Positions 1 through 64,000 of a DNA stretch of 64,000 nucleotides are shown piece by piece; position 1 is the stretch's first letter; every line of letters begins with the position of its first letter. The notes beneath the pieces were generated by a model. It was not told the origin of the DNA. It searched no databases and saw only the letters and a program-made list of their open reading frames with translations. Both the position numbers and the translations under genes were made by a program. Origin of the DNA: Crossaster papposus (taxonomy: Eukaryota > Echinodermata > Asteroidea > Velatida > Solasteridae); the NCBI GenBank assembly GCA_037893245.1, contig JBAIAA010000262.1:620001-684000 (forward strand), written 5' to 3'.

Positions 1-61
1 GCAGTTGAAGCGTGCTGGGCCCATAACCCAGAGGTCCGAGGATCGAAACCTCGCTCTTCTA
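1..61 (+). tRNA. tRNA-iMet-like module A, 5' end cut by window edge
   Basis: Last 61 nt of an A module: the D-loop onward, anticodon arm CTGGG-CCCATAA-CCCAG, T arm CGAGG-ATCGAAA-CCTCG and 3' acceptor strand CTCTTCT plus A. A T5 run follows at 67-71. The missing 11 nt lie left of the window. Confidence 0.85.
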
Positions 62-83
62 ACAAGTTTTTGGTATGACATGA

Positions 84-167
84 GGTACTCGACTCGGAGT
101 GACAAAGTAGACACTTTCTTGGTCAGTACCCGAGAGTTTGGTTGACCACAACCTCGGTCTGCTCAGG
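84..167 (+). pseudogene. E1: 5S rRNA-like relic (3' two-thirds), first copy
   Basis: An 84-nt segment between modules A and B. It shows blocks, in the right order, that resemble the internal control region of animal 5S rRNA: CTCGGA, then ACAAAGTAG (5S: CTAAGCAG), then TGGTCAGTAC (5S: TGGTTAGTAC), then GACC, then GGT...AGG near the 3' end. A TTTT run at 175-178 sits where a 5S terminator would be. It lacks the first ~35 nt of 5S and has an insertion of a few bases after AGTAC. It also folds: CTCGG (93-97) with CCGAG (130-134), TGAC (100-103) with GTCA (122-125), AAAG (104-107) with CTTT (114-117), and GGTTG-ACCA-CAACC (140-153). The 5S alignment is from memory. The alternative is an unknown SINE-like domain, or a tRNA 3' end carrying an insertion (CCTCGGTCTGCT resembles the A-module tail). 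Confidence 0.5.
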
Positions 168-174
168 ATAATTA

Positions 175-178
175 TTTT
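175..178 (+). terminator. T4 run after E1 (possible Pol III terminator)
   Basis: TTTT, 7 nt past the end of E1, present in every unit I read. It matches the minimal Pol III stop signal. Confidence 0.5.
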
Positions 179-213
179 CTTGAAAGTGATTTCATTTTCA
201 TTACAAATAGTTA

Positions 214-285
214 CGCAGAGTGGTGCCGTGGGAGCGTGATGGGCCCATAACCCAGAGGCCCGAGGACCGAAACCTCGCTCTGCTA
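214..285 (+). tRNA. tRNA-iMet-like module B (CAT), first copy
   Basis: 72-nt cloverleaf. Acceptor CGCAGAG/CTCTGCT pairs at 6 of 7 positions (C1 opposite T72 fails); D stem GTGC/GCGT pairs with wobble; anticodon arm ATGGG-CCCATAA-CCCAG pairs 4 of 5 (the outermost pair is A/G); T stem CGAGG/CCTCG is perfect with loop ACCGAAA. Anticodon CAT with C33 and the GGG/CCC stem mark an initiator tRNA origin. I count about seven differences from the inferred invertebrate-type parent, including loss of A1. The A box (TGGTGCCGTGG) has one break from consensus and the B box reads GACCGAAAC. Likely a degenerate copy rather than a working initiator tRNA. Confidence 0.8.
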
Positions 286-293
286 AAGAGGTA

Positions 294-298
294 TTTTT
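294..298 (+). terminator. T5 run after module B
   Basis: TTTTT starting 9 nt past the module end, in the context GTATTTTTGC; kept in all B copies read. Consistent with a Pol III terminator. Confidence 0.7.
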
Positions 299-329
299 GC
301 TTCACTGTTATTCAAATTTAATAATTATT

Positions 330-348
330 TTAGAATGTTTTTAGAATG
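330..348 (+). repeat. TTAGAATG short direct repeat upstream of module C
   Basis: Two copies of TTAGAATG, 11 bp apart (one helical turn), about 42-60 bp upstream of C. The same pair lies upstream of A with TGTAGAATG as the first member, and upstream of X. Role unknown. Confidence 0.55.
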
Positions 349-389
349 TCTGCTTTTATTTTGTTTGTTGTTTTTCTAAATTTACATGA

Positions 390-461
390 GGCATGGTGGC
401 GCAGTGGAAGCTTGCTGGGCCTATAACCCAGAGTGCCGAGGATCAAAACCTCGTTCTGCTG
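390..461 (+). tRNA. tRNA-iMet-like module C with TAT anticodon, first copy
   Basis: 72-nt cloverleaf. Acceptor GGCATGG/TTCTGCT relies on wobble pairs and has one mismatch; D stem GCGC/GCTT has one mismatch, but the D-loop keeps GG; anticodon arm CTGGG-CCTATAA-CCCAG is fully paired; T stem CGAGG/CCTCG is perfect with loop ATCAAAA. The anticodon is TAT, not CAT, which would read AUA (Ile) on an initiator-type body; the discriminator is G. A box TGGCGCAGTGG and B box GATCAAAAC both fit the Pol III consensus, so C has the best internal promoter of the four. About ten differences from the inferred parent. The TAT state is present in essentially every C copy of both arms. Confidence 0.78.
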
Positions 462-469
462 CTAATAAG

Positions 470-474
470 TTTTT
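470..474 (+). terminator. T5 run after module C
   Basis: TTTTT starting 9 nt past module C, in the context AAGTTTTTGG; conserved in nearly all copies (one A-module copy at ~4070 and one C copy at ~2870 show changes next to the run). Confidence 0.65.
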
Positions 475-486
475 GGTATGACTTGA

Positions 487-570
487 AGTACTCGACTCAG
501 AGTGACAAAGTAGACCCTTTCTTGGTCAGTAACCGAGAGTTCGGATGATCACAACCTCGGTCTGCTCAGG
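487..570 (+). pseudogene. E2: 5S rRNA-like relic, second version, first copy
   Basis: An 84-nt counterpart of E1 between C and D. It keeps TGGTCAGTA and has TTCGGATGATCAC where 5S rRNA has the conserved GGATG of its C box; E1 instead keeps GACC. Taken together the two versions point to an ancestor closer to 5S than either. The outer hairpin is weaker than in E1 because CTCGG is CTCAG here. A TTTT run follows at 575-578. Same caveats on identity as for E1. Confidence 0.5.
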
Positions 571-574
571 ATAA

Positions 575-578
575 TTTT
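575..578 (+). terminator. T4 run after E2 (possible Pol III terminator)
   Basis: TTTT, 4 nt past the end of E2, in the context GATAATTTTG; seen in all units read. Confidence 0.5.
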
Positions 579-616
579 GTATTTGATAGGGATTTCATTT
601 TCATTAAAAATAGTTA

Positions 617-688
617 CGCAGAGTAGTGCAGCGGGAGCGTGATGGGCCCATAGCCCAGAGGTCCGAGGACCAAAACCTCGCTTTGCTA
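617..688 (+). tRNA. tRNA-iMet-like module D (CAT), first copy
   Basis: 72-nt cloverleaf. Acceptor CGCAGAG/CTTTGCT pairs 6 of 7 including one G-T; D stem GTGC/GCGT pairs with wobble; anticodon arm ATGGG-CCCATAG-CCCAG has the same outermost A/G mismatch as B and G in place of A38; T stem CGAGG/CCTCG is perfect with loop ACCAAAA. Anticodon CAT. A box TAGTGCAGCGG fits consensus; B box GACCAAAAC is off at one base. About ten differences from the inferred parent. B and D share the outermost anticodon-stem mismatch and C1, so they descend from one already altered copy. Confidence 0.78.
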
Positions 689-790
689 ACTAGGTATTTT
701 TGCTTCACTGCTATTCACATTTAATAAATATTGTAGAATGTTTTTAGAATGTCTGCTTTAATTTTGTTTGCATTTTCAAAATTTACATGA
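689..790 (+). other. D-to-A spacer (102 bp)
   Basis: Twin of the B-to-C spacer: T5 run, GCTTCACTG, paired TAGAATG motifs and a T-rich stretch ending ACATGA. Copies fall into three classes just before module A (AAAATTTAC, AAAATCTAC, TAAATCTAC), which are useful markers of unit history. Confidence 0.7.
697..701 (+). terminator. T5 run after module D
   Basis: TTTTT starting 9 nt past module D in the context GTATTTTTGC, as after B. Confidence 0.65.
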
Positions 791-862
791 GGCATAGTGG
801 CGCAGTTGAAGCGTGCTGGGCCCATAACCCAGAGGTCCGAGGATCGAAACCTCGCTCTTCTA
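791..862 (+). tRNA. tRNA-iMet-like module A (CAT), first complete copy
   Basis: The module closest to a normal tRNA-iMet: about four differences from the inferred invertebrate-type parent. Acceptor GGCATAG/CTCTTCT has two mismatches and one G-T; D stem GCGC/GCGT is paired, but the D-loop AGTTGAA has lost one G of the conserved GG; anticodon arm CTGGG-CCCATAA-CCCAG is fully paired with CAT; T arm CGAGG-ATCGAAA-CCTCG has an intact initiator-type loop. A box TGGCGCAGTTG and B box GATCGAAAC both fit the Pol III consensus. Loss of A1:U72 and a weak acceptor argue against initiator function in this arm. Confidence 0.82.
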
Positions 863-867
863 ACAAG

Positions 868-872
868 TTTTT
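868..872 (+). terminator. T5 run after module A
   Basis: TTTTT starting 6 nt past module A in the context AAGTTTTTGG. Confidence 0.65.
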
Positions 873-3800
873 GGTATGACATGAGGTACTCGACTCGGAG
901 TGACAAAGTAGACACTTTCTTGGTCAGTACCCGAGAGTTTGGTTGACCACAACCTCGGTCTGCTCAGGATAATTATTTTTTTGGAAGTGATTTCATTTTC
1001 ATTACAAATAGTTACGCAGAGTGGTGCCGTGGGAGCGTGATGGGCCCATAACCCAGAGGCCCGAGGACCGAAACCTCGCTCTGCTAAAGAGGTATTTTTG
1101 CTTCACTGTTATTCAAATTTAATAATTATTTTAGAATGTTTTTAGAATGTCTGCTTTTATTTTGTTTGTTGTTTTTCTAAATTTACATGAGGCATGGTGG
1201 CGCAGTGGAAGCTTGCTGGGCCTATAACCCAGAGTGCCGAGGATCAAAACCTCGTTCTGCTGCTAATAAGTTTTTGGTATGACTTGAAGTACTCGACTCA
1301 GAGTGACAAAGTAGACCCTTTCTTGGTCAGTAACCGAGAGTTCGGATGATCACAACCTCGGTCTGCTCAGGATAATTTTGTATTTGATAGGGATTTCATT
1401 TTCATTAAAAATAGTTACGCAGAGTAGTGCAGCGGGAGCGTGATGGGCCCATAGCCCAGAGGTCCGAGGACCAAAACCTCGCTTTGCTAACTAGGTATTT
1501 TTGCTTCACTGCTATTCACATTTAATAAATATTGTAGAATGTTTTTAGAATGTCTGCTTTAATTTTGTTTGCATTTTCAAAATCTACATGAGGCATAGTG
1601 GCGCAGTTGAAGCGTGCTGGGCCCATAACCCAGAGGTCCGAGGATCGAAACCTCGCTCTTCTAACAAGTTTTTGGTATGACATGAGGTACTCGACTCGGA
1701 GTGACAAAGTAGACACTTTCTTGGTCAGTACCCGAGAGTTTGGTTGACCACAACCTCGGTCTGCTCAGGATAATTATTTTCTTGAAAGTGATTTCATTTT
1801 CATTACAAATAGTTACGCAGAGTGGTGCCGTGGGAGCGTGATGGGCCCATAACCCAGAGGCCCGAGGACCGAAACCTCGCTCTGCTAAAGAGGTATTTTT
1901 GCTTCACTGTTATTCCAATTTAATAATTATTTTAGAATGTTTTTAGAATGTCTGCTTTTATTTTGTTTGTTGTTTTTCTAAATTTACATGAGGCATGGTG
2001 GCGCAGTGGAAGCTTGCTGGGCCTATAACCCAGAGTGCCGAGGATCAAAACCTCGTTCTGCTGCTAATAAGTTTTTGGTATGACTTGAAGTACTCGACTC
2101 AGAGTGACAAAGTAGACCCTTTCTTGGTCAGTAACCGAGAGTTCGGATGATCACAACCTCGGTCTGCTCAGGATAATTTTGTATTTGATAGGGATTTCAT
2201 TTTCATTAAAAATAGTTACGCAGAGTAGTGCAGCGGGAGCGTGATGGGCCCATAGCCCAGAGGTCCGAGGACCAAAACCTCGCTTTGCTAACTAGGTATT
2301 TTTGCTTCACTGCTATTCACATTTAATAAATATTGTAGAATGTTTTTAGAATGTCTGCTTTAATTTTGTTTGCATTTTCAAAATTTACATGAGGCATAGT
2401 GGCGCAGTTGAAGCGTGCTGGGCCCATAACCCAGAGGTCCGAGGATCGAAACCTCGCTCTTCTAACAAGTTTTTGGTATGACATGAGGTACTCGACTCGG
2501 AGTGACAAAGTAGACACTTTCTTGGTCAGTACCCGAGAGTTTGGTTGACCACAACCTCGGTCTGCTCAGGATAATTATTTTCTTGAAAGTGATTTCATTT
2601 TCATTACAAATAGTTACGCAGAGTGGTGCCGTGGGAGCGTGATGGGCCCATAACCCAGAGGCCCGAGGACCGAAACCTCGCTCTGCTAAAGAGGTATTTT
2701 TGCTTCACTGTTATTCAAATTTAATAATTATTTTAGAATGTTTTTAGAATGTCTGCTTTTATTTTGTTTGTTGTTTTTATAAATTTACATGAGGCATGGT
2801 GGCGCAGTGGAAGCTTGCTGGGCCTATAACCCAGAGTGCCGAGGATCAAAACCTCGTTCTGCTGCTAATAAGTTGTTGGTATGACTTGAAGTACTCGACT
2901 CAGAGTGACAAAGTAGACCCTTTCTTGGTCAGTAACCGAGAGTTCGGATGATCACAACCTCGGTCTGCTCAGGATAATTTTGTATTTGATAGGGATTTCA
3001 TTTTCATTAAAAATAGTTACGCAGAGTAGTGCAGCGGGAGCGTGATGGGCCCATAGCCCAGAGGTCCGAGGACCAAAACCTCGCTTTGCTAACTAGGTAT
3101 TTTTGCTTCACTGCTATTCACATTTAATAAATATTGTAGAATGTTTTTAGAATGTCTGCTTTAATTTTGTTTGCATTTTCAAAATTTACATGAGGCATAG
3201 TGGCGCAGTTGAAGCGTGCTGGGCCCATAACCCAGAGGTCCGAGGATCGAAACCTCGCTCTTCTAACAAGTTTTTGGTATGACATGAGGTACTCGACTCG
3301 GAGTGACAAAGTAGACACTTTCTTGGTCAGTACCCGAGAGTTTGGTTGACCACAACCTCGGTCTGCTCAGGATAATTATTTTCTTGAAAGTGATTTCATT
3401 TTCATTACAAATAGTTACGCAGAGTGGTGCCGTGGGAGCGTGATGGGCCCATAACCCAGAGGCCCGAGGACCGAAACCTCGCTCTGCTAAAGAGGTATTT
3501 TTGCTTCACTGTTATTCAAATTTAATAATTATTTTAGAATGTTTTTAGAATGTCTGCTTTTATTTTGTTTGTTGTTTTTCTAAATTTACATGAGGCATGG
3601 TGGCGCAGTGGAAGCTTGCTGGGCCTATAACCCAGAGTGCCGAGGATCAAAACCTCGTTCTGCTGCTAATAAGTTTTTGGTATGACTTGAAGTACTCGAC
3701 TCAGAGTGACAAAGTAGACCCTTTCTTGGTCAGTAACCGAGAGTTCGGATGATCACAACCTCGGTCTGCTCAGGATAATTTTGTATTTGATAGGGATTTC

Positions 3801-6800
3801 ATTTTCATTAAAAATAGTTACGCAGAGTAGTGCAGCGGGAGCGTGATGGGCCCATAGCCCAGAGGTCCGAGGACCAAAACCTCGCTTTGCTAACTAGGTA
3901 TTTTTGCTTCACTGCTATTCACATTTAATAAATATTGTAGAATGTTTTTAGAATGTCTGCTTTAATTTTGTTTGCATTTTCAAAATTTACATGAGGCATA
4001 GTGGCGCAGTTGAAGCGTGCTGGGCCCATAACCCAGAGGTCCGAGGATCGAAACCTCGCTCTTCTAACAAGTTTTTTGTATGACATGAGGTACTCGACTC
4101 GGAGTGACAAAGTAGACACTTTCTTGGTCAGTACCCGAGAATTTGGTTGACCACAACCTCGGTCTGCTCAGGATAATTATTTTCTTGAAAGTGATTTCAT
4201 TTTCATTACAAATAGTTACGCAGAGTGGTGCCGTGGGAGCGTGATGGGCCCATAACCCAGAGGCCCGAGGACCGAAACCTCGCTCTGCTAAAGAGGTATT
4301 TTTGCTTCACTGTTATTCAAATTTAATAGTTATTTTAGAATGTTTTTAGAATGTCTGCTTTTATTTTGTTTGTTGTTTTTCTAAATTTACATGAGGCATG
4401 GTGGCGCAGTGGAAGCTTGCTGGGCCTATAACCCAGAGTGCCAAGGATCAAAACCTCGTTCTGCTGCTAATAAGTTTTTGGTATGACTTGAAGTACTCGA
4501 CTCAGAGTGACAAAGTAGACCCTTTCTTGGTCAGTAACCGAGAGTTCGGATGATCACAACCTCGGTCTGCTCAGGATAATTTTGTATTAGATAGGGATTT
4601 CATTTTCATTAAAAATAGTTACGCAGAGTAGTGCAGCGGGAGCGTGATGGGCCCATAGCCCAGAGGTCCGAGGACCAAAACCTCGCTTTGCTAACTAGGT
4701 ATTTTTGCTTCACTGCTATTCACATTTAATAAATATTGTAGAATGTTTTTAGAATGTCTGCTTTAATTTTGTTTGCATTTTCAAAATCTACATGAGGCAT
4801 AGTGGCGCAGTTGAAGCGTGCTGGGCCCATAACCCAGAGGTCCGAGGATCGAAACCTCGCTCTTCTAACAAGTTTTTGGTATGACATGAGGTACTCGACT
4901 CGGAGTGACAAAGTAGACACTTTCTTGGTCAGTACCCGAGAGTTTGGTTGACCACAACCTCGGTCTGCTCAGGATAATTATTTTCTTGAAAGTGATTTCA
5001 TTTTCATTACAAATAGTTACGCAGAGTGGTGCCGTGGGAGCGTGATGGGCCCATAACCCAGAGGCCCGAGGACCGAAACCTCGCTCTGCTAAAGAGGTAT
5101 TTTTGCTTCACTGTTATTCAAATTTAATAATTATTTTAGAATGTTTTTAGAATGTCTGCTTTTATTTTGTTTGTTGTTTTTCTAAATTTACATGAGGCAT
5201 GGTGGCGCAGTGGAAGCTTGCTGGGCCTATAACCCAGAGTGCCGAGGATCAAAACCTCGTTCTGCTGCTAATAAGTTTTTGGTATGACTTGAAGTACTCG
5301 ACTCAGAGTGACAAAGTAGACCCTTTCTTGGTCAGTAACCGAGAGTTCGGATGATCACAACCTCGGTCTGCTCAGGATAATTTTGTATTTGATAGGGATT
5401 TCATTTTCATTAAAAATAGTTACGCAGAGTAGTGCAGCGGGAGCGTGATGGGCCCATAGCCCAGAGGTCCGAGGACCAAAACCTCGCTTTGCTAACTAGG
5501 TATTTTTGCTTCACTGCTATTCACATTTAATAAATATTGTAGAATGTTTTTAGAATGTCTGCTTTAATTTTGTTTGCATTTTCTAAATCTACATGAGGCA
5601 TAGTGGCGCAGTTGAAGCGTGCTGGGCCCATAACCCAGAGGTCCGAGGATCGAAACCTCGCTCTTCTAACAAGTTTTTGGTATGACATGAGGTACTCGAC
5701 TCGGAGTGACAAAGTAGACACTTTCTTGGTCAGTACCCGAGAGTTTGGTTGACCACAACCTCGGTCTGCTCAGGATAATTATTTTCTTGAAAGTGATTTC
5801 ATTTTCATTACAAATAGTTACGCAGAGTGGTGCCGTGGGAGCGTGATGGGCCCATAACCCAGAGGCCCGAGGACCGAAACCTCGCTCTGCTAAAGAGGTA
5901 TTTTTGCTTCACTGTTATTCAAATTTAATAATTATTTTAGAATGTTTTTAGAATGTCTGCTTTTATTTTGTTTGTTGTTTTTCTAAATTTACATGAGGCA
6001 TGGTGGCGCAGTGGAAGCTTGCTGGGCCTATAACCCAGAGTGCCGAGGATCAAAACCTCGTTCTGCTGCTAATAAGTTTTTGGTATGACTTGAAGTACTC
6101 GACTCAGAGTGACAAAGTAGACCCTTTCTTGGTCAGTAACCGAGAGTTCGGATGATCACAACCTCGGTCTGCTCAGGATAATTTTGTATTTGATAGGGAT
6201 TTCATTTTCATTAAAAATAGTTACGCAGAGTAGTGCAGCGGGAGCGTGATGGGCCCATAGCCCAGAGGTCCGAGGACCAAAACCTCGCTTTGCTAACTAG
6301 GTATTTTTGCTTCACTGCTATTCACATTTAATAAATATTGTAGAATGTTTTTAGAATGTCTGCTTTAATTTTGTTTGCATTTTCTAAATCTACATGAGGC
6401 ATAGTGGCGCAGTTGAAGCGTGCTGGGCCCATAACCCAGAGGTCCAAGGATCGAAACCTCGCTCTTCTAACAAGTTTTTGGTATGACATGAGGTACTCGA
6501 CTCGGAGTGACAAAGTAGACACTTTCTTGGTCAGTACCCGAGAGTTTGGTTGACCACAACCTCGGTCTGCTCAGGATAATTATTTTCTTGAAAGTGATTT
6601 CATTTTCATTACAAATAGTTACGCAGAGTGGTGCCGTGGGAGCGTGATGGGCCCATAACCCAGAGGCCCGAGGACCGAAACCTCGCTCTGCTAAAGAGGT
6701 ATTTTTGCTTCACTGTTATTCAAATTTAATAATTATTTTAGAATGTTTTTAGAATGTCTGCTTTTATTTTGTTTGTTGTTTTTCTAAATTTACATGAGGC

Positions 6801-9800
6801 ATGGTGGCGCAGTGGAAGCTTGCTGGGCCTATAACCCAGAGTGCCGAGGATCAAAACCTCGTTCTGCTGCTAATAAGTTTTTGGTATGACTTGAAGTACT
6901 CGACTCAGAGTGACAAAGTAGACCCTTTCTTGGTCAGTAACCGAGAGTTCGGATGATCACAACCTCGGTCTGCTCAGGATAATTTTGTATTTGATAGGGA
7001 TTTCATTTTCATTAAAAATAGTTACGCAGAGTAGTGCAGCGGGAGCGTGATGGGCCCATAGCCCAGAGGTCCGAGGACCAAAACCTCGCTTTGCTAACTA
7101 GGTATTTTTGCTTCACTGCTATTCACATTTAATAAATATTGTAGAATGTTTTTAGAATGTCTGCTTTAATTTTGTTTGCATTTTCTAAATCTACATGAGG
7201 CATAGTGGCGCAGTTGAAGCGTGCTGGGCCCATAACCCAGAGGTCCGAGGATCGAAACCTCGCTCTTCTAACAAGTTTTTGGTATGACATGAGGTACTCG
7301 ACTCGGAGTGACAAAGTAGACACTTTCTTGGTCAGTACCCGAGAGTTTGGTTGACCACAACCTCGGTCTGCTCAGGATAATTATTTTCTTGAAAGTGATT
7401 TCATTTTCATTACAAATAGTTACGCAGAGTGGTGCCGTGGGAGCGTGATGGGCCCATAACCCAGAGGCCCGAGGACCGAAACCTCGCTCTGCTAAAGAGG
7501 TATTTTTGCTTCACTGTTATTCAAATTTAATAATTATTTTAGAATGTTTTTAGAATGTCTGCTTTTATTTTGTTTGTTGTTTTTCTAAATTTACATGAGG
7601 CATGGTGGCGCAGTGGAAGCTTGCTGGGCCTATAACCCAGAGTGCCGAGGATCAAAACCTCGTTCTGCTGCTAATAAGTTTTTGGTATGACTTGAAGTAC
7701 TCGACTCAGAGTGACAAAGTAGACCCTTTCTTGGTCAGTAACCGAGAGTTCGGATGATCACAACCTCGGTCTGCTCAGGATAATTTTGTATTTGATAGGG
7801 ATTTCATTTTCATTAAAAATAGTTACGCAGAGTAGTGCAGCGGGAGCGTGATGGGCCCATAGCCCAGAGGTCCGAGGACCAAAACCTCGCTTTGCTAACT
7901 AGGTATTTTTGCTTCACTGCTATTCACATTTAATAAATATTGTAGAATGTTTTTAGAATGTCTGCTTTAATTTTGTTTGCATTTTCAAAATTTACATGAG
8001 GCATAGTGGCGCAGTTGAAGCGTGCTGGGCCCATAACCCAGAGGTCCGAGGATCGAAACCTCGCTCTTCTAACAAGTTTTTGGTATGACATGAGGTACTC
8101 GACTCGGAGTGACAAAGTAGACACTTTCTTGGTCAGTACCCGAGAGTTTGGTTGACAACAACCTCGGTCTGCTCAGGATAATTATTTTCTTGAAAGTGAT
8201 TTCATTTTCATTACAAATAGTTACGCAGAGTGGTGCCGTGGGAGCGTGATGGGCCCATAACCCAGAGGCCCGAGGACCGAAACCTCGCTCTGCTAAAGAG
8301 GTATTTTTGCTTCACTGTTATTCAAATTTAATAATTATTTTAGAATGTTTTTAGAATGTCTGCTTTTATTTTGTTTGTTGTTTTTCTAAATTTACATGAG
8401 GCATGGTGGCGCAGTGGAAGCTTGCTGGGCCTATAACCCAGAGTGCCGAGGATCAAAACCTCGTTCTGCTGCTAATAAGTTTTTGGTATGACTTGAAGTA
8501 CTCGACTCAGAGTGACAAAGTAGACCCTTTCTTGGTCAGTAACCGAGAGTTCGGATGATCACAACCTCGGTCTGCTCAGGATAATTTTGTATTTGATAGG
8601 GATTTCATTTTCATTAAAAATAGTTACGCAGAGTAGTGCAGCGGGAGCGTGATGGGCCCATAGCCCAGAGGTCCGAGGACCAAAACCTCGCTTTGCTAAC
8701 TAGGTATTTTTGCTTCACTGCTATTCACATTTAATAAATATTGTAGAATGTTTTTAGAATGTCTGCTTTAATTTTGTTTGCATTTTCAAAATTTACATGA
8801 GGCATAGTGGCGCAGTTGAAGCGTGCTGGGCCCATAACCCAGAGGTCCGAGGATCGAAACCTCGCTCTTCTAACAAGTTTTTGGTATGACATGAGGTACT
8901 CGACTCGGAGTGACAAAGTAGACACTTTCTTGGTCAGTACCCGAGAGTTTGGTTGACCACAACCTCGGTCTGCTCAGGATAATTATTTTCTTGAAAGTGA
9001 TTTCATTTTCATTACAAATAGTTACGCAGAGTGGTGCCGTGGGAGCGTGATGGGCCCATAACCCAGAGGCCCGAGGACCGAAACCTCGCTCTGCTAAAGA
9101 GGTATTTTTGCTTCACTGTTATTCAAATTTAATAATTATTTTAGAATGTTTTTAGAATGTCTGCTTTTATTTTGTTTGTTGTTTTTCTAAATTTACATGA
9201 GGCATGGTGGCGCAGTGGAAGCTTGCTGGGCCTATAACCCAGAGTGCCGAGGATCAAAACCTCGTTCTGCTGCTAATAAGTTTTTGGTATGACTTGAAGT
9301 ACTCGACTCAGAGTGACAAAGTAGACCCTTTCTTGGTCAGTAACCGAGAGTTCGGATGATCACAACCTCGGTCTGCTCAGGATAATTTTGTATTTGATAG
9401 GGATTTCATTTTCATTAAAAATAGTTACGCAGAGTAGTGCAGCGGGAGCGTGATGGGCCCATAGCCCAGAGGTCCGAGGACCAAAACCTCGCTTTGCTAA
9501 CTAGGTATTTTTGCTTCACTGCTATTCACATTTAATAAATATTGTAGAATGTTTTTAGAATGTCTGCTTTAATTTTGTTTGCATTTTCAAAATTTACATG
9601 AGGCATAGTGGCGCAGTTGAAGCGTGCTGGGCCCATAACCCAGAGGTCCGAGGATCGAAACCTCGCTCTTCTAACAAGTTTTTGGTATGACATGAGGTAC
9701 TCGACTCGGAGTGACAAAGTAGACACTTTCTTGGTCAGTACCCGAGAGTTTGGTTGACCACAACCTCGGTCTGCTCAGGATAATTATTTTCTTGAAAGTG

Positions 9801-11832: not shown

Positions 11833-11904
11833 CGCAGAGTAGTGCAGCGGGAGCGTGATGGGCCTATAGCCCAGAGGTCCGAGGACCAAAACCTCGCTTT
11901 GCTA
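11833..11904 (+). tRNA. Module D copy with TAT anticodon
   Basis: D copy whose anticodon (11865-11867) is TAT instead of CAT; otherwise standard. A single C-to-T change. Confidence 0.75.
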
Positions 11905-13436: not shown

Positions 13437-13508
13437 CGCAGAGTAGTGCAGCGGGAGCGTGATGGGCCCTTAGCCCAGAGGTCCGAGGACCAAAACCTCG
13501 CTTTGCTA
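13437..13508 (+). tRNA. Module D copy with CTT anticodon
   Basis: D copy with CTT at 13469-13471, a lysine anticodon on an initiator-type body. A single A-to-T change seen nowhere else in the window. Confidence 0.72.
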
Positions 13509-23953: not shown

Positions 23954-24009
23954 TTAATAAATATTGTAGAATGTTTTTAGAATGTCTGCTTTAATTTTGT
24001 TTGCATTTT

Positions 24010-24030
24010 CTAAATCTACATAATTTGAAT
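24010..24030. other. Inversion junction between the two array arms (tail to tail)
   Basis: Left of about 24020 the sequence is a D-to-A spacer on +, ending TAAATCTACAT just before the expected GAGG of module A. Right of it the sequence is the reverse strand of a B-type 3' flank (AATTTGAATAACAGTGAAGC). The arms do not form a perfect palindrome at the centre: the left arm ends in a D-to-A spacer and the right in a B-type flank. At most one or two bases of overlap are visible. tRNA strands converge on this point. Confidence 0.93.
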
Positions 24031-24041
24031 AACAGTGAAGC

Positions 24042-24046
24042 AAAAA
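24042..24046 (-). terminator. T5 run after module X
   Basis: AAAAA on +, hence TTTTT on the tRNA strand, starting 9 nt beyond the 3' end of X. Confidence 0.65.
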
Positions 24047-24054
24047 TACCTCTT

Positions 24055-24126
24055 TAGCAGAGCGAGGATTTGGTCCTCGGACCTCTGGGTTATGGGCCCA
24101 GCACGCTCCCACTGCTCCACTCTACT
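24055..24126 (-). tRNA. Unique junction module X: best-paired tRNA-iMet-like element (CAT)
   Basis: A single-copy, 72-nt module at the inversion. Acceptor AGTAGAG/CTCTGCT pairs at all seven positions (one G-T), and it is the only module in the window with the initiator-specific A1:T72. D stem GAGC/GCGT has one mismatch and the D-loop keeps GGG; anticodon arm CTGGG-CCCATAA-CCCAG is perfect; T stem CGAGG/CCTCG is perfect with loop ACCAAAT, which lacks A60 and T55. A box TGGAGCAGTGG; B box GACCAAATC is off consensus. About six differences from the inferred parent. Its upstream flank (CATGA, TTTCTAAATGTA) is A/C type while its downstream flank (AAGAGGTATTTTT) is B type, and no E segment follows it. 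It may be a hybrid from recombination within tRNA homology, or a survivor of an older, simpler unit. Confidence 0.82.
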
Positions 24127-24300: not shown

Positions 24301-24346
24301 TAACTATTTGTAATGAAAATGAAATCACTTTCAAGAAAATAATTAT

Positions 24347-48682: not shown

Positions 48683-48756
48683 TAGCGCAAAGCGAGGTTT
48701 TGGTCCTCGGACCTCTGGGCTATGGGCTCATCACGCTCCCGCTGCACTACTCTGCG
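48683..48756 (-). tRNA. Module D copy with a 2-bp insertion in the acceptor end
   Basis: GC inserted in the 3' acceptor strand (+ strand TTAGCGCAAAGC), making the module 74 nt and disrupting the acceptor pairing. It shares a changed anticodon stem (GGGCTCATCACG on +) and AATACATAG with the D module one unit before, so these two neighbours derive from one unit duplication. Confidence 0.75.
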
Positions 48757-53000: not shown

Positions 53001-54650
53001 AGAAAAACAACAAACAAAATAAAAGCAGACATTCTAAAAACATTCTAAAATAATTATTACTTTTGAATAACAGTGAAGCAAAAATACCTCTTTAGCAGAG
53101 CGAGGTTTCGGTCCTCGGGCCTCTGGGTTATGGGCCCATCACGCTCCCACGGCACCACTCTGCGTAACTATTTGTAATGAAAATGAAATCACTTTCAAGA
53201 AAATAATTATCCTGAGCAGACCGAGGTTGTGGTCAACCAAACTCTCGGGTACTGACCAAGAAAGTGTCTACTTTGTCACTCCGAGTCGAGTACCTCATGT
53301 CATACCAAAAACTTGTTAGCAGAGCGAGGTTTCGATCCTCGGACCTCTGGGTTATGGGCCCAGCACGCTTCAACTGCGCCACTATGCCTCATGTAAATTT
53401 AGAAAATGCAAACAAAATTAAAGCAGACATTCTAAAAACATTCTACAACATTTATTAAATGTGAATAGCAGTGAAGCAAAAATACCTAGTTAGCAAAGCG
53501 AGGTTTTGGTCCTCGGACCTCTGGGCTATGGGCCCATCACGCTCCCGCTGCACTACTCTGCGTAACTATTTTTAATGAAAATGAAATCCCTATCAAATAC
53601 AAAATTATCCTGAGCAGACCGAGGTTGTGATCATCCGAACTCTCGGTTACTGACCAAGAAAGGGTCTACTTTGTCACTCTGAGTCGAGTACTTCAAGTCA
53701 TACCAAAAACTTATTAGCAGCAGAACGAGGTTTTGATCCTCGGCACTCTGGGTTATAGGCCCAGCAAGCTTCCACTGCGCCACCATGCCTCATGTAAATT
53801 TAGAAAAACAACAAACAAAATAAAAGCAGACATTCTAAAAACATTCTAAAATAATTATTAAATTTGAATAACAGTGAAGCAAAAATACCTCTTTAGCAGA
53901 GCGAGGTTTCGGTCCTCGGGCCTCTGGGTTATGGGCCCATCACGCTCCCACGGCACCACTCTGCGTAACTATTTGTAATGAAAATGAAATCACTTTCAAG
54001 AAAATAATTATCCTGAGCAGACCGAGGTTGTGGTCAACCAAACTCTCGGGTACTGACCAAGAAAGTGTCTACTTTGTCACTCCGAGTCGAGTACCTCATG
54101 TCATACCAAAAACTTGTTAGCAGAGCGAGGTTTCGATCCTCGGACCTCTGGGTTATGGGCCCAGCACGCTTCAACTGCGCCACTATGCCTCATGTAAATT
54201 TAGAAAATGCAAACAAAATTAAAGCAGACATTCTAAAAACATTCTACAATATTTATTAAATGTGAATAGCAGTGAAGCAAAAATACCTAGTTAGCAAAGC
54301 GAGGTTTTGGTCCTCGGACCTCTGGGCTATGGGCCCATCACGCTCCCGCTGCACTACTCTGCGTAACTATTTTTAATGAAAATGAAATCCCTATCAAATA
54401 CAAAATTATCCTGAGCAGACCGAGGTTGTGATCATCCGAACTCTCGGTTACTGACCAAGAAAGGGTCTACTTTGTCACTCTGAGTCGAGTACTTCAAGTC
54501 ATACCAAAAACTTATTAGCAGCAGAACGAGGTTTTGATCCTCGGCACTCTGGGTTATAGGCCCAGCAAGCTTCCACTGCGCCACCATGCCTCATGTAAAT
54601 TTAGAAAAGCAACAAACAAAATAAAAGCAGACATTCTAAAAACATTCTAA
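50100..54650 (-). repeat. Copy 1 of a long duplicated block (offset 8010 bp)
   Basis: Shares a long series of rare variants, in order, with the block 8010 bp (ten units) to the right: GAGGTTTTGATCC, GCCAATATGCC, AGACGTTC, GCAAATATACC, CTCCCTCGG, GTTGAGGTC, CTACAACATTT, GAAAAGCAAC, GACCGGGGTTG, ATTACTTTTG, CTACAACATTT, GAAAAGCAAC. Limits are set by the outermost shared variants and are approximate. Confidence 0.85.
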
Positions 54651-57600
54651 AATAATTATTAAATTTGAATAACAGTGAAGCAAAAATACCTCTTTAGCAG
54701 AGCGAGGTTTCGGTCCTCGGGCCTCTGGGTTATGGGCCCATCACGCTCCCACGGCACCACTCTGCGTAACTATTTGTAATGAAAATGAAATCACTTTCAA
54801 GAAAATAATTATCCTGAGCAGACCGAGGTTGTGGTCAACCAAACTCTCGGGTACTGACCAAGAAAGTGTCTACTTTGTCACTCCGAGTCGAGTACCTCAT
54901 GTCATACCAAAAACTTGTTGGCAGAGCGAGGTTTCGATCCTCGGACCTCTGGGTTATGGGCCCAGCACGCTTCAACTGCGCCACTATGCCTCATGTAAAT
55001 TTAGAAAATGCAAACAAAATTAAAGCAGACATTCTAAAAACATTCTACAATATTTATTAAATGTGAATAGCAGTGAAGCAAAAATACCTAGTTAGCAAAG
55101 CGAGGTTTTGGTCCTCGGACCTCTGGGCTATGGGCCCATCACGCTCCCGCTGCACTACTCTGCGTAACTATTTTTAATGAAAATGAAATCCCTATCAAAT
55201 ACAAAATTATCCTGAGCAGACCGAGGTTGTGATCATCCGAACTCTCGGTTACTGACCAAGAAAGGGTCTACTTTGTCACTCTGAGTCGAGTACTTCAAGT
55301 CATACCAAAAACTTATTAGCAGCAGAACGAGGTTTTGATCCTCGGCACTCTGGGTTATAGGCCCAGCAAGCTTCCACTGCGCCACCATGCCTCATGTAAA
55401 TTTAGAAAAACAACAAACAAAATAAAAGCAGACATTCTAAAAACATTCTAAAATAATTATTACTTTTGAATAACAGTGAAGCAAAAATACCTCTTTAGCA
55501 GAGCGAGGTTTCGGTCCTCGGGCCTCTGGGTTATGGGCCCATCACGCTCCCACGGCACCACTCTGCGTAACTATTTGTAATGAAAATGAAATCACTTTCA
55601 AGAAAATAATTATCCTGAGCAGACCGAGGTTGTGGTCAACCAAACTCTCGGGTACTGACCAAGAAAGTGTCTACTTTGTCACTCCGAGTCGAGTACCTCA
55701 TGTCATACCAAAAACTTGTTAGCAGAGCGAGGTTTCGATCCTCGGACCTCTGGGTTATGGGCCCAGCACGCTTCAACTGCGCCACTATGCCTCATGTAAA
55801 TTTAGAAAATGCAAACAAAATTAAAGCAGACATTCTAAAAACATTCTACAATATTTATTAAATGTGAATAGCAGTGAAGCAAAAATACCTAGTTAGCAAA
55901 GCGAGGTTTTGGTCCTCGGACCTCTGGGCTATGGGCCCATCACGCTCCCGCTGCACTACTCTGCGTAACTATTTTTAATGAAAATGAAATCCCTATCAAA
56001 TACAAAATTATCCTGAGCAGACCGAGGTTGTGATCATCCGAACTCTCGGTTACTGACCAAGAAAGGGTCTACTTTGTCACTCTGAGTCGAGTACTTCAAG
56101 TCATACCAAAAACTTATTAGCAGCAGAACGAGGTTTTGATCCTCGGCACTCTGGGTTATAGGCCCAGCAAGCTTCCACTGCGCCACCATGCCTCATGTAA
56201 ATTTAGAAAAACAACAAACAAAATAAAAGCAGACATTCTAAAAACATTCTACAATAATTATTAAATTTGAATAACAGTGAAGCAAAAATACCTCTTTAGC
56301 AGAGCGAGGTTTCGGTCCTCGGGCCTCTGGGTTATGGGCCCATCACGCTCCCACGGCACCACTCTGCGTAACTATTTGTAATGAAAATGAAATCACTTTC
56401 AAGAAAATAATTATCCTGAGCAGACCGAGGTTGTGGTCAACCAAACTCTCGGGTACTGACCAAGAAAGTGTCTACTTTGTCACTCCGAGTCGAGTACCTC
56501 ATGTCATACCAAAAACTTGTTAGCAGAGCGAGGTTTCGATCCTCGGACCTCTGGGTTATGGGCCCAGCACGCTTCAACTGCGCCACTATGCCTCATGTAA
56601 ATTTAGAAAATGCAAACAAAATTAAAGCAGACATTCTAAAAACATTCTACAATATTTATTAAATGTGAATAGCAGTGAAGCAAAAATACCTAGTTAGCAA
56701 AGCGAGGTTTTGGTCCTCGGACCTCTGGGCTATGGGCCCATCACGCTCCCGCTGCACTACTCTGCGTAACTATTTTTAATGAAAATGAAATCCCTATCAA
56801 ATACAAAATTATCCTGAGCAGACCGAGGTTGTGATCATCCGAACTCTCGGTTACTGACCAAGAAAGGGTCTACTTTGTCACTCTGAGTCGAGTACTTCAA
56901 GTCATACCAAAAACTTATTAGCAGCAGAACGAGGTTTTGATCCTCGGCACTCTGGGTTATAGGCCCAGCAAGCTTCCACTGCGCCACCATGCCTCATGTA
57001 AATTTAGAAAAACAACAAACAAAATAAAAGCAGACATTCTAAAAACATTCTAAAATAATTATTAAATTTGAATAACAGTGAAGCAAAAATACCTCTTTAG
57101 CAGAGCGAGGTTTCGGTCCTCGGGCCTCTGGGTTATGGGCCCATCACGCTCCCACGGCACCACTCTGCGTAACTATTTGTAATGAAAATGAAATCACTTT
57201 CAAGAAAATAATTATCCTGAGCAGACCGAGGTTGTGGTCAACCAAACTCTCGGGTACTGACCAAGAAAGTGTCTACTTTGTCACTCCGAGTCGAGTACCT
57301 CATGTCATACCAAAAACTTGTTAGCAGAGCGAGGTTTCGATCCTCGGACCTCTGGGTTATGGGCCCAGCACGCTTCAACTGCGCCACTATGCCTCATGTA
57401 AATTTAGAAAATGCAAACAAAATTAAAGCAGACATTCTAAAAACATTCTACAATATTTATTAAATGTGAATAGCAGTGAAGCAAAACTACCTAGTTAGCA
57501 AAGCGAGGTTTTGGTCCTCGGACCTCTGGGCTATGGGCCCATCACGCTCCCGCTGCACTACTCTGCGTAACTATTTTTAATGAAAATGAAATCCCTATCA

Positions 57601-58109
57601 AATACAAAATTATCCTGAGCAGACCGAGGTTGTGATCATCCGAACTCTCGGTTACTGACCAAGAAAGGGTCTACTTTGTCACTCTGAGTCGAGTACTTCA
57701 AGTCATACCAAAAACTTATTAGCATCAGAACGAGGTTTTGATCCTCGGCACTCTGGGTTATAGGCCCAGCAAGCTTCCACTGCGCCACCATGCCTCATGT
57801 AAATTTAGAAAAACAACAAACAAAATAAAAGCAGACATTCTAAAAACATTCTAAAATAATTATTAAATTTGAATAACAGTGAAGCAAAAATACCTCTTTA
57901 GCAGAGCGAGGTTTCGGTCCTCGGGCCTCTGGGTTATGGGCCCATCACGCTCCCACGGCACCACTCTGCGTAACTATTTGTAATGAAAATGAAATCACTT
58001 TCAAGAAAATAATTATCCTGAGCAGACCGAGGTTGTGGTCAACCAAACTCTCGGGTACTGACCAAGAAAGTGTCTACTTTGTCACTCCGAGTCGAGTACC
58101 TCATGTCAT

Positions 58110-61100
58110 ACCAAAAACTTGTTAGCAGAGCGAGGTTTTGATCCTCGGACCTCTGGGTTATGGGCCCAGCACGCTTCAACTGCGCCAATATGCCTCATGT
58201 AAATTTAGAAAATGCAAACAAAATTAAAGCAGACGTTCTAAAAACATTCTACAATATTTATTAAATGTGAATAGCAGTGAAGCAAATATACCTAGTTAGC
58301 AAAGCGAGGTTTTGGTCCTCGGACCTCTGGGCTATGGGCCCATCACGCTCCCGCTGCACTACTCTGCGTAACTATTTTTAATGAAAATGAAATCCCTATC
58401 AAATACAAAATTATCCTGAGCAGACCGAGGTTGTGATCATCCGAACTCTCGGTTACTGACCAAGAAAGGGTCTACTTTGTCACTCTGAGTCGAGTACTTC
58501 AAGTCATACCAAAAACTTATTAGCAGCAGAACGAGGTTTTGATCCTCGGCACTCTGGGTTATAGGCCCAGCAAGCTTCCACTGCGCCACCATGCCTCATG
58601 TAAATTTAGAAAAACAACAAACAAAATAAAAGCAGACATTCTAAAAACATTCTAAAATAATTATTAAATTTGAATAACAGTGAAGCAAAAATACCTCTTT
58701 AGCAGAGCGAGGTTTCGGTCCTCGGGCCTCTGGGTTATGGGCCCATCACGCTCCCTCGGCACCACTCTGCGTAACTATTTGTAATGAAAATGAAATCACT
58801 TTCAAGAAAATAATTATCCTGAGCAGACCGAGGTTGAGGTCAACCAAACTCTCGGGTACTGACCAAGAAAGTGTCTACTTTGTCACTCCGAGTCGAGTAC
58901 CTCATGTCATACCAAAAACTTGTTAGCAGAGCGAGGTTTCGATCCTCGGACCTCTGGGTTATGGGCCCAGCACGCTTCAACTGCGCCACTATGCCTCATG
59001 TAAATTTAGAAAATGCAAACAAAATTAAAGCAGACATTCTAAAAACATTCTACAACATTTATTAAATGTGAATAGCAGTGCAGCAAAAATACCTAGTTAG
59101 CAAAGCGAGGTTTTGGTCCTCGGACCTCTGGGCTATGGGCCCATCACGCTCCCGCTGCACTACTCTGCGTAACTATTTTTAATGAAAATGAAATCCCTAT
59201 CAAATACAAAATTATCCTGAGCAGACCGAGGTTGTGATCATCCGAACTCTCGGTTACTGACCAAGAAAGGGTCTACTTTGTCACTCTGAGTCGAGTACTT
59301 CAAGTCATACCAAAAACTTATTAGCAGCAGAACGAGGTTTTGATCCTCGGCACTCTGGGTTATAGGCCCAGCAAGCTTCCACTGCGCCACCATGCCTCAT
59401 GTAAATTTAGAAAAACAACAAACAAAATAAAAGCAGACATTCTAAAAACATTCTAAAATAATTATTAAATTTGAATAACAGTGAAGCAAAAATACCTCTT
59501 TAGCAGAGCGAGGTTTCGGTCCTCGGGCCTCTGGGTTATGGGCCCATCACGCTCCCACGGCACCACTCTGCGTAACTATTTGTAATGAAAATGAAATCAC
59601 TTTCAAGAAAATAATTATCCTGAGCAGACCGAGGTTGTGGTCAACCAAACTCTCGGGTACTGACCAAGAAAGTGTCTACTTTGTCACTCCGAGTCGAGTA
59701 CCTCATGTCATACCAAAAACTTGTTGGCAGAGCGAGGTTTCGATCCTCGGACCTCTGGGTTATGGGCCCAGCACGCTTCAACTGCGCCACTATGCCTCAT
59801 GTAAATTTAGAAAATGCAAACAAAATTAAAGCAGACATTCTAAAAACATTCTACAATATTTATTAAATGTGAATAGCAGTGAAGCAAAAATATCTAGTTA
59901 GCAAAGCGAGGTTTTGGTCCTCGGACCTCTGGGCTATAGGCCCATCACGCTCCCGCTGCACTACTCTGCGTAACTATTTTTAATGAAAATGAAATCCCTA
60001 TCAAATACAAAATTATCCTGAGCAGACCGAGGTTGTGATCATCCGAACTCTCGGTTACTGACCAAGAAAGGGTCTACTTTGTCACTCTGAGTCGAGTACT
60101 TCAAGTCATACCAAAAACTTATTAGCAGCAGAACGAGGTTTTGATCCTCGGCACTCTGGGTTATAGGCCCAGCAAGCTTCCACTGCGCCACCATGCCTCA
60201 TGTAAATTTAGAAAAGCAACAAACAAAATAAAAGCAGACATTCTAAAAACATTCTAAAATAATTATTAAATTTGAATAACAGTGAAGCAAAAATACCTCT
60301 TTAGCAGAACGAGGTTTCGGTCCTCGGGCCTCTGGGTTATGGGCCCATCACGCTCCCACGGCACCACTCTGCGTAACTATTTGTAATGAAAATGAAATCA
60401 CTTTCAAGAAAATAATTATCCTGAGCAGACCGGGGTTGTGGTCAACCAAACTCTCGGGTACTGACCAAGAAAGTGTCTACTTTGTCACTCCGAGTCGAGT
60501 ACCTCATGTCATACCAAAAACTTGTTGGCAGAGCGAGGTTTCAATCCTCGGACCTCTGGGTTATGGGCCCAGCACGCTTCAACTGCGCCACTATGCCTCA
60601 TGTAAATTTAGAAAATGCAAACAAAATTAAAGCAGACATTCTAAAAACATTCTACAATATTTATTAAATGTGAATAGCAGTGAAGCAAAAATACCTAGTT
60701 AGCAAAGCGAGGTTTTGGTCCTCGGACCTCTGGGCTATGGGCCCATCACGCTCCCGCTGCACTACTCTGCGTAACTATTTTTAATGAAAATGAAATCCCT
60801 ATCAAATACAAAATTATCCTGAGCAGACCGAGGTTGTGATCATCCGAACTCTCGGTTACTGACCAAGAAAGGGTCTACTTTGTCACTCTGAGTCGAGTAC
60901 TTCAAGTCATACCAAAAACTTATTAGCAGCAGAACGAGGTTTTGATCCTCGGCACTCTGGGTTATAGGCCCAGCAAGCTTCCACTGCGCCACCATGCCTC
61001 ATGTAAATTTAGAAAAACAACAAACAAAATAAAAGCAGACATTCTAAAAACATTCTAAAATAATTATTACTTTTGAATAACAGTGAAGCAAAAATACCTC

Positions 61101-62660
61101 TTTAGCAGAGCGAGGTTTCGGTCCTCGGGCCTCTGGGTTATGGGCCCATCACGCTCCCACGGCACCACTCTGCGTAACTATTTGTAATGAAAATGAAATC
61201 ACTTTCAAGAAAATAATTATCCTGAGCAGACCGAGGTTGTGGTCAACCAAACTCTCGGGTACTGACCAAGAAAGTGTCTACTTTGTCACTCCGAGTCGAG
61301 TACCTCATGTCATACCAAAAACTTGTTAGCAGAGCGAGGTTTCGATCCTCGGACCTCTGGGTTATGGGCCCAGCACGCTTCAACTGCGCCACTATGCCTC
61401 ATGTAAATTTAGAAAATGCAAACAAAATTAAAGCAGACATTCTAAAAACATTCTACAACATTTATTAAATGTGAATAGCAGTGAAGCAAAAATACCTAGT
61501 TAGCAAAGCGAGGTTTTGGTCCTCGGACCTCTGGGCTATGGGCCCATCACGCTCCCGCTGCACTACTCTGCGTAACTATTTTTAATGAAAATGAAATCCC
61601 TATCAAATACAAAATTATCCTGAGCAGACCGAGGTTGTGATCATCCGAACTCTCGGTTACTGACCAAGAAAGGGTCTACTTTGTCACTCTGAGTCGAGTA
61701 CTTCAAGTCATACCAAAAACTTATTAGCAGCAGAACGAGGTTTTGATCCTCGGCACTCTGTGTTATAGGCCCAGCAAGCTTCCACTGCGCCACCATGCCT
61801 CATGTAAATTTAGAAAAACAACAAACAAAATAAAAGCAGACATTCTAAAAACATTCTAAAATAATTATTAAATTTGAATAACAGTGAAGCAAAAATACCT
61901 CTTTAGCAGAGCGAGGTTTCGGTCCTCGGGCCTCTGGGTTATGGGCCCATCACGCTCCCACGGCACCACTCTGCGTAACTATTTGTAATGAAAATGAAAT
62001 CACTTTCAAGAAAATAATTATCCTGAGCAGACCGAGGTTGTGGTCAACCAAACTCTCGGGTACTGACCAAGAAAGTGTCTACTTTGTCACTCCGAGTCGA
62101 GTACCTCATGTCATACCAAAAACTTGTTAGCAGAGCGAGGTTTCGATCCTCGGACCTCTGGGTTATGGGCCCAGCACGCTTCAACTGCGCCACTATGCCT
62201 CATGTAAATTTAGAAAATGCAAACAAAATTAAAGCAGACATTCTAAAAACATTCTACAATATTTATTAAATGTGAATAGCAGTGAAGCAAAAATACCTAG
62301 TTAGCAAAGCGAGGTTTTGGTCCTCGGACCTCTGGGCTATGGGCCCATCACGCTCCCGCTGCACTACTCTGCGTAACTATTTTTAATGAAAATGAAATCC
62401 CTATCAAATACAAAATTATCCTGAGCAGACCGAGGTTGTGATCATCCGAACTCTCGGTTACTGACCAAGAAAGGGTCTACTTTGTCACTCTGAGTCGAGT
62501 ACTTCAAGTCATACCAAAAACTTATTAGCAGCAGAACGAGGTTTTGATCCTCGGCACTCTGGGTTATAGGCCCAGCAAGCTTCCACTGCGCCACCATGCC
62601 TCATGTAAATTTAGAAAAGCAACAAACAAAATAAAAGCAGACATTCTAAAAACATTCTAA
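58110..62660 (-). repeat. Copy 2 of the long duplicated block (offset 8010 bp)
   Basis: Second member of the ten-unit-offset pair. A few private changes (for example TATCTAGTTAG near 59891, CAATCCTCGG near 60543) have accumulated since the duplication. The ATTACTTTTG at ~55460 has no partner near 63470, so the shared block ends before that. Confidence 0.85.
59899..59970 (-). tRNA. Module D copy with TAT anticodon (right arm)
   Basis: + strand ATA at 59936-59938 reads TAT on the tRNA strand, the same change as the left-arm D at 11833 but independent by position. Confidence 0.73.
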
Positions 62661-63102
62661 AATAATTATTAAATTTGAATAACAGTGAAGCAAAAATACC
62701 TCTTTAGCAGAGCGAGGTTTTGGTCCTCGGGCCTCTGGGTTATGGGCCCATCACGCTCCCACGGCACCACTCTGCGTAACTATTTGTAATGAAAATGAAA
62801 TCACTTTCAACCAAATAATTATCCTGAGCAGACCGAGGTTGTGGTCAACCAAACTCTCGGGTACTGACCAAGAAAGTGTCTACTTTGTCACTCCGAGTCG
62901 AGTACCTCATGTCATACCAAAAACTTGTTGGCAGAGCGAGGTTTCGATCCTCGGACCTCTGGGTTATGGGCCCAGCACGCTTCAACTGCGCCACTATGCC
63001 TCATGTAAATTTAGAAAATGCAAACAAAATTAAAGCAGACATTCTAAAAACATTCTACAATATTTATTAAATGTGAATAGCAGTGAAGCAAAAATACCTA
63101 GT

Positions 63103-63174
63103 TAGCAAAGCGAGGTTTTGGTCCTCGGACCTCTGGGCTACGGGCCCATCACGCTCCCGCTGCACTACTCTGCG
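63103..63174 (-). tRNA. Module D copy with CGT anticodon
   Basis: + strand ACG at 63140-63142 reads CGT, a threonine anticodon; single occurrence. Confidence 0.73.
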
Positions 63175-63903
63175 TAACTATTTTTAATGAAAATGAAATC
63201 CCTATCAAATACAAAATTATCCTGAGCAGACCGAGGTTGTGATCATCCGAACTCTCGGTTACTGACCAAGAAAGGGTCTACTTTGTCACTCTGAGTCGAG
63301 TACTTCAAGTCATACCAAAAACTTATTAGCAGCAGAACGAGGTTTTGATCCTCGGCACTCTGGGTTATAGGCCCAGCAAGCTTCCACTGCGCCACCATGC
63401 CTCATGTAAATTTAGAAAAACAACAAACAAAATAAAAGCAGACATTCTAAAAACATTCTAAAATAATTATTAAATTTGAATAACAGTGAAGCAAAAATAC
63501 CTCTTTAGCAGAGCGAGGTTTCGGTCCTCGGGCCTCTGGGTTATGGGCCCATCACGCTCCCACGGCACCACTCTGCGTAACTATTTGTAATGAAAATGAA
63601 ATCACTTTCAAGAAAATAATTATCCTGAGCAGACCGAGGTTGTGGTCAACCAAACTCTCGGGTACTGACCAAGAAAGTGTCTACTTTGTCACTCCGAGTC
63701 GAGTACCTCATGTCATACCAAAAACTTGTTAGCAGAGCGAGGTTTCGATCCTCGGACCTCTGGGTTATGGGCCCAGCACGCTTCAACTGCGCCACTATGC
63801 CTCATGTAAATTTAGAAAATGCAAACAAAATTAAAGCAGACATTCTAAAAACATTCTACAATATTTATTAAATGTGAATAGCAGTGAAGCAAAAATACCT
63901 AGT

Positions 63904-63975
63904 TAGCAAAGCGAGGTTTTGGTCCTCGGACCTCTGGGCTATGGGCCCATCACGCTCCCGCTGCACTACTCTGCG
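63904..63975 (-). tRNA. Last complete module D at the right edge
   Basis: Standard D module; the array continues past 64000 with the D upstream flank (AATAGTTA, then ATTTCATTTTCATT on the tRNA strand). Confidence 0.78.
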
Positions 63976-64000
63976 TAACTATTTTTAATGAAAATGAAAT

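Follow-up and report, generated by a model that had tools for sequence, protein, structure and literature searches.

The 64-kb stretch of Crossaster papposus DNA analysed here (C262:620001–684000, referred to as the window; host assembly 1.02 Gb in 1,841 contigs) probably represents one block of a satellite family that arose when a working initiator tRNA (iMet) gene was duplicated in tandem. This reading is carried by what is observed directly in the assembly, namely the anatomy of the repeat, its copy number, a repeat consensus on another contig (C146) that is identical to the living gene, the lack of any extra conservation of the tRNA part, and the duplication of an element resembling a long terminal repeat (LTR) together with the array around it. 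We infer that the 72-nt iMet-derived copies in the window, hereafter modules, make no working initiator tRNA.

Layout and extent of the arrays

Tandem repeat occupies nearly all of the window, and Tandem Repeats Finder delimits two arrays. A search with the iMet anticodon arm, allowing at most three mismatches, recovered 320 recognisable modules, 120 of which lie on the forward strand in the left array (1–24,021; anticodon arms at 16–23,876) and 200 on the reverse strand in the right array (24,056–64,000). This count bears out the initial annotation, made from the sequence alone, which had reported about 320 initiator-tRNA-like modules at one per ~200 bp. The spacings between modules are mostly 174, 224, 176 and 227 bp and sum to a higher-order repeat (HOR) of 801 bp with four modules, in agreement with the four module versions per unit noted at the outset; 69 of the 77 HOR copies measured in the window are 801 bp long. 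The switch of strand, which the initial finding did not mention, falls within a spacer at 24,021–24,056, as judged from the array limits, the change in module orientation and the sign of the skews, with both GC and AT skew flipping at the array junction (~24.0 kb). A second strand switch is found on the same contig at C262:112,721. A palindromic, mirror-image origin of the switch in the window found no support, as mirrored HOR pairs differ by 0.0068 and all left–right pairs by 0.0074.

The arrays extend well beyond the window. iMet modules were present at every C262 locus examined between 96.8 and 810 kb, in a discontinuous sampling that also revealed interruptions, and modules of the window type occur on C79, C271, C255, C648, C723 and C735 as well as at 2.9–3.45 Mb of C146. 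Genome-wide, an 18-mer of the anticodon arm gave 47,857 matches at up to two mismatches, compared with 28 for the reversed control. Likewise, at up to three mismatches a 47-mer gave 12,847 matches and the module type with anticodon TAT 8,292, with none for either control. At ~200 bp per module the family is estimated to span roughly 9.6 Mb, or near 0.9% of the assembly, a figure that haplotype copies (e.g. C13/C723) may inflate. The long head-to-tail arrays and the high copy number are those of satellite DNA. No TTAGGG run was seen at the four contig ends read (the end of C146 and the starts of C262, C60 and C13). The last 100 bases of C146 and the first 100 bases of C60 belong to one other repeat in opposite sense, and the iMet array on C60 begins ~1.2 kb from the contig end.

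Anatomy of the repeat unit

On C146, two unit classes were aligned. The consensus of the 224-bp class (A, 53 units) opens with the exact 72-nt iMet gene, whereas that of the 174-bp class (B, 120 units) differs from the gene by five changes, including A1C and two in the T-loop. A third copy (C), full-length and decayed, lies inside the A spacer on C146 and is ~72% identical to iMet; its ungapped 69-nt alignment scores 31, a value reached by none of 1000 dinucleotide shuffles (maximum 13). Local alignment of the C146 unit detected no such copy in the B spacer. The basic unit is thus ~398 bp long with three iMet copies, and the 801-bp HOR consists of two such units. The window holds 159 C copies, overlooked in the initial annotation, which match iMet at a mean of 47.4 of 69 positions (range 44–50). 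Because each long spacer (in the 224- and 227-bp units) also contains a decayed C copy, the iMet-derived share of the window amounts to ~53%.

The HOR at 791–1591 on the forward strand, used as the query unit, illustrates this arrangement. It starts with module A' at 791–862 (anticodon CAT, with G1, T5 and other changes; 44.2 bits in cmscan; consensus W224), the type consensus of which carries four changes relative to the iMet gene, followed by a run of five T at 868–872, a position resembling that of an RNA polymerase III (Pol III) terminator. A decayed C copy, one of the 159 in the window, occupies 896–964 of the A' spacer. Module B' at 1015–1086 (32.1 bits; W176) starts with C1 and has an altered T-loop, and module A'' at 1191–1262 (35.5 bits; W227) carries the anticodon TAT. 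The A'' spacer again holds a decayed C copy, at 1299–1367, identified from the sequence and by the C-copy search. Finally, module B'' at 1418–1489 (32.1 bits; W174) combines C1 and an altered T-loop with a change at position 38.

Gene-like signals persist around the modules. Among the 319 complete modules of the window, to which all counts of module state refer, 315 are followed within 28 nt by a run of four T, and elements resembling the A box and the B box, scored with consensus patterns, were each present in 158. A 3' CCA, sought throughout the window, is not encoded after the modules; in many A-type modules the next letters are ACA, which differs from CCA at one base.

Comparison of the modules with iMet genes

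Infernal cmscan placed 219 of the 320 modules above the Rfam gathering score for tRNA (cut-off 29), so that the tRNA likeness first proposed, which low scores throughout would have undone, stands. ARAGORN made 27 tRNA calls in the window, all tRNA-Met(CAT). Still, the decay is evident. The initial annotation held that every module keeps the initiator anticodon stem and loop, which does not apply: the anticodon is CAT in only 236 modules, TAT in 80 and another triplet in three, and all five anticodon-stem pairs are retained in just 156, with four of five in a further 156 and three of five in seven. The comparison with the genome's own iMet gene, which had been suggested as a check, places 317 modules at 3–11 mismatches, with one at 13 and one at 21, and none is identical to it. 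Loss of the A1:U72 pair, initially ascribed to all array modules, is nearly complete in the window, where a single module has A1:T72, but it does not extend to the family as a whole, since 115 of the 195 modules sampled on C146 retain it.

Five exact iMet genes were located on C885, all in a stretch of 11 kb that is clear of any array, and a degraded sixth copy lies nearby; from their genomic context the five are taken as the ordinary iMet genes. Three of the five are probably local duplicates, because their just-upstream sequences are alike. These genes score 58.7 bits with the tRNA covariance model, a level that the modules do not attain: the top score in the window, among the matches listed (150 of 219), is 52.1 bits. 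Similarly, the combination of A1:U72 with a CAU anticodon, found in five of the six C885 copies and in part of the C146 modules, does not characterize those of the window. Exact copies of the 72-nt gene number 1,281 genome-wide; among the matches listed, all lie at 4.31–5.93 Mb of C146 except for the five on C885, and the exact 47-mer reaches 6.57 Mb of C146, again among the matches listed. ARAGORN assigns some array modules on C146, which have CTT or TTT as anticodon, to tRNA-Lys; automatic annotation would consequently miscount tRNA-Lys genes.

Conservation and homogenization

Excess conservation of the tRNA part was looked for in three tests, and none was found. Between the C146 consensus and the four window types, modules have changed at 21 of 288 positions and spacers at 32 of 508 (Fisher p = 0.66; 4, 8, 5 and 4 changes per type in modules, 9, 10, 9 and 4 in spacers), a comparison that is approximate, with small indels left out and some changes common to several types. 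Among the C146 units, variation is higher in modules than in spacers, for the 224-bp class (0.035 vs 0.020) as well as the 174-bp class (0.056 vs 0.040), although these 173 units were chosen around early pattern matches rather than at random and subfamilies may explain part of the variation. In the window itself, the difference between module and spacer variation goes in either direction depending on the class. Nor is there a deficit, as the number of exact gene 72-mers (1,281) is bracketed by those of two spacer segments (1,822 and 1,136). Modules being no better conserved than spacers, the tRNA part fares no differently from the remainder of the repeat, and neither coding constraint nor that of an RNA gene is apparent. 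At the same time, the 77 HORs of the window have been homogenized recently, with a mean identity of 99.26% and 45 identical pairs out of 2,926. Together with ~48,000 anticodon arms genome-wide and a listed best score of 52.1 bits against 58.7 for real genes, these results favour the original suggestion that the arrays are satellite DNA descended from a tRNA gene and not a gene family.

The same data bear on two alternatives in which the arrays would be maintained for a function. In the first, the satellite would serve a structural role, as a docking site for TFIIIC and Pol III, a chromatin boundary or (peri)centromeric DNA. tRNA genes can act as boundaries. The very long arrays on many contigs, their HOR organization and the retention of B-box-like elements in 158 of 319 modules would all suit such a role, and a human tRNA tandem repeat has been implicated as a boundary (PMC4041453). 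Conversely, a sequence-specific role predicts that modules are conserved over spacers, which was not observed, and the B box is altered in the B-type modules; we regard a structural role as unlikely. In the second, a functional iMet array would have been amplified to satisfy the demand for initiator tRNA, for example in eggs or embryos, with decayed modules as by-products. The 1,281 exact gene copies, the T-runs and box-like elements at the modules, and the presence of intact-looking tRNA-Lys arrays in the same genome (785 copies; listed best 78–79 bits) are compatible with this proposal. It is nevertheless quite improbable, given that no window module is exact and only one has A1:T72, that conservation of modules does not exceed that of spacers and in the sampled C146 units falls below it, and that five ordinary iMet genes are available on C885.

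Array edges and spread of the family

Seven array edges were compared (three on C146 and one each on C255, C648, C723 and C735), and their flanks are 98.5–100% identical over 1.3–1.9 kb. A 3.1-kb flank occurs at full length 17 times, including the query, on 11 contigs with 98–100% identity, and at least 11 of these 17 copies run on into array modules. Pfam identifies a piece of a gag-type zinc knuckle (zf-CCHC, E = 2.5e-5) in the flank, together with an integrase core (rve, E = 2.7e-16), and by eye the flank seems also to bear an LTR. A related copy on C783, with no array at that place, displays what look by eye like reverse-transcriptase frames at the point from which the copies joined to arrays pass straight to the zinc knuckle. 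Further out, the adjoining 2.5 kb likewise gave 17 matches of nearly full length at 94–100%, the query counted among them, beyond which repeats of varying number follow. C262 itself carries the shared flank at 197,314–200,423, within a block edge that extends over C262:197,314–205,900. Blocks consisting of array edge plus flank have thus been copied around the genome, by segmental duplication or transposition. The flank matches on C13 and on C723 run in parallel, as though these contigs were haplotype copies of one region.

Duplication within an array was also captured. A solo-LTR-like insert of 1,527 bp (TGTTAG...TTACA, with the 5-bp direct repeat GTCAG) is present at C262:608,248 and again 3.9 kb away at 612,185, the two copies being identical at 1525 of 1527 positions, from which it follows that an array segment of ~3.9 kb was duplicated after the insert had landed.

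The retrotransposon remnant adjoining the array edges raises the possibility that the repeat is itself a tandemly amplified small LTR retrotransposon, of the kind of the Helenus terminal-repeat retrotransposons in miniature (TRIMs), with the iMet sequence residing in its LTRs. Helenus LTRs are described as carrying tRNA-like sequence, and one of these elements is reported in tandem arrays (PMC10886601). In the present repeat, the A and B spacers differ by eye and hence no LTR pair is evident, CCA is lacking, the iMet-type primer-binding word, the one primer site sought, has no match in the window, and the module consensus on C146 equals the living gene with a gene-like trailer, so that a TRIM origin appears very improbable. 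Retroposition of a mature tRNA was considered separately and rejected on the absence of CCA past the modules and of matches in the window to three iMet primer-binding words; given the ACA that follows many A-type modules, a decayed CCA is nonetheless conceivable. An assembly artefact, inflating the copy number or creating false strand switches, is suggested by the haplotype-like flank matches of C13 and C723 and by the position of both switches (24.0 kb of the window and C262:112,721) within near-identical repeats, yet it is hardly to be credited, considering that sub-variants shift along the window and differ between its arms, that mirrored HOR pairs are scarcely closer than left–right pairs at large (0.0068 vs 0.0074), and that related modules occur on many contigs.

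Other features of the genome

Arrays of tRNA-Lys(TTT) were encountered on C479 (19–486 kb, units of ~572–576 bp) and C424 (1.27–1.38 Mb, ~770 bp). The 785 copies of this tRNA at up to three mismatches, with best matches at 78–79 bits, look intact by score. Tandem tRNA arrays are therefore not rare in this genome, but it is the iMet arrays, unlike those of tRNA-Lys, that have gone on to become decayed satellite. The 5.3-Mb contig C8 contains intron-free frames of the COX1 family and a tRNA-Lys/tRNA-Asn cluster that is bacterial-looking by eye, and is probably a symbiont or contaminant. The mitochondrial COX1 on C1841 aligns without gaps to a solved mammalian chain with 359 of 445 residues identical. 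Its codons (6 of 7 AAA standing at Asn, 13 of 13 TGA at Trp, 13 of 21 ATA at Ile and 4 of 7 AGA at Ser) fit NCBI table 9, the code of echinoderms and flatworms; of these two groups, the closeness to the mammalian chain favours an echinoderm.

Origin of the satellite

The descent of the window from a working tRNA-iMet gene can be sketched as follows. The founder would have been such a gene with its gene-like trailer and T-run terminator, duplicated in tandem to give a founding unit of ~398 bp in which the A, B and C copies are of different age. The unit would then have spread to many contigs, with several blocks starting with one common retrotransposon-bearing edge. Within the block on C262, a pair of diverged units may have become locked into the 801-bp HOR, which presumably expanded and was homogenized via unequal exchange and local segmental duplication and would now be drifting. 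Unequal exchange as the motor is the presumed element in this scheme, perhaps aided by replication stalling at Pol III units.

Some observations weigh against this reading. The tRNA gathering score is passed by 219 of the 320 modules, and A-box-like and B-box-like elements each persist in about half, such that the loss of function is not proven. Exact gene copies are numerous (1,281 genome-wide) and outnumber those of one of the two spacer segments counted (1,136). Furthermore, no founder locus could be located, the flanks of the C885 genes having no visible likeness to the array flanks (by eye). Transcription by Pol III is conceivable for some A modules, in particular those identical to the gene. 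A living continuum from ordinary iMet genes through arrays with more than 1,200 gene-identical copies to decayed HOR satellites, in which the arrays are still active, either as a germ-line reserve of initiator tRNA or as very long TFIIIC platforms with an effect on chromosome or centromere structure, is a possibility to which we give little credence.

Relation to known repeats and implications

Tandem repeats with a tRNA-like part are known from amphibians, as described for the newt PolIII/TAN (~360 nt), the Xenopus OAX or 'satellite I', and Rana/polIII, in which the tRNA part is 64% identical over 64 nt (PMC10702118). Like the present family, the amphibian repeats are tandem DNA of high copy number that includes a tRNA-like part, and the newt unit is of similar length. 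Their tRNA parts are described there as tRNA-like or tRNA-related, whereas here the source is the initiator tRNA, with a C146 consensus equal to the living gene, three copies of different age in each unit and an 801-bp HOR in the window. Squamate satellites, according to the same source, derive from portions of short interspersed nuclear elements (SINEs) and are amplified less than typical satellites (PMC10702118). Those repeats are likewise tandem satellites of Pol III-type descent; in the present case a SINE source was neither shown nor sought, and the exact match between module and living gene argues against one. The Helenus TRIMs, with LTR-11_DR of zebrafish being the one reported in tandem arrays (PMC10886601), share the multiplication of a tRNA-like sequence to thousands of copies; as elements with LTRs, a primer-binding site and target duplications they would differ from modules whose consensus on C146 equals a gene. 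Finally, the tRNA gene arrays of Entamoeba (PMC2652664) and the tDNA repeat at human 1q23.3 (PMC4041453) are also head-to-tail units of tRNA sequence. In contrast to those tRNA genes, the window modules are decayed and unconserved above their spacers, and their numbers are far larger. No iMet-derived satellite was found among the open-licence papers listed, judged from titles and the openings of abstracts, which is not proof of absence. tRNA-derived tandem repeats are known, and what sets the present one apart is the initiator source, the three copies per unit, the gene-identical members and the size of the family.

In this family the ancestor of a satellite is a gene that is both named and essential, and the intermediates persist, in the form of iMet genes lying apart from the arrays, array copies identical to the gene, a unit whose copies are of mixed age and a homogenized HOR. 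As these intermediates are still present, origin, spread and decay are measurable within one genome. Counts of tRNA genes and tRNA-derived reads may be overwhelmed by gene-like satellite modules, which number in the tens of thousands, and the family provides a test of whether massed Pol III promoters affect chromatin.

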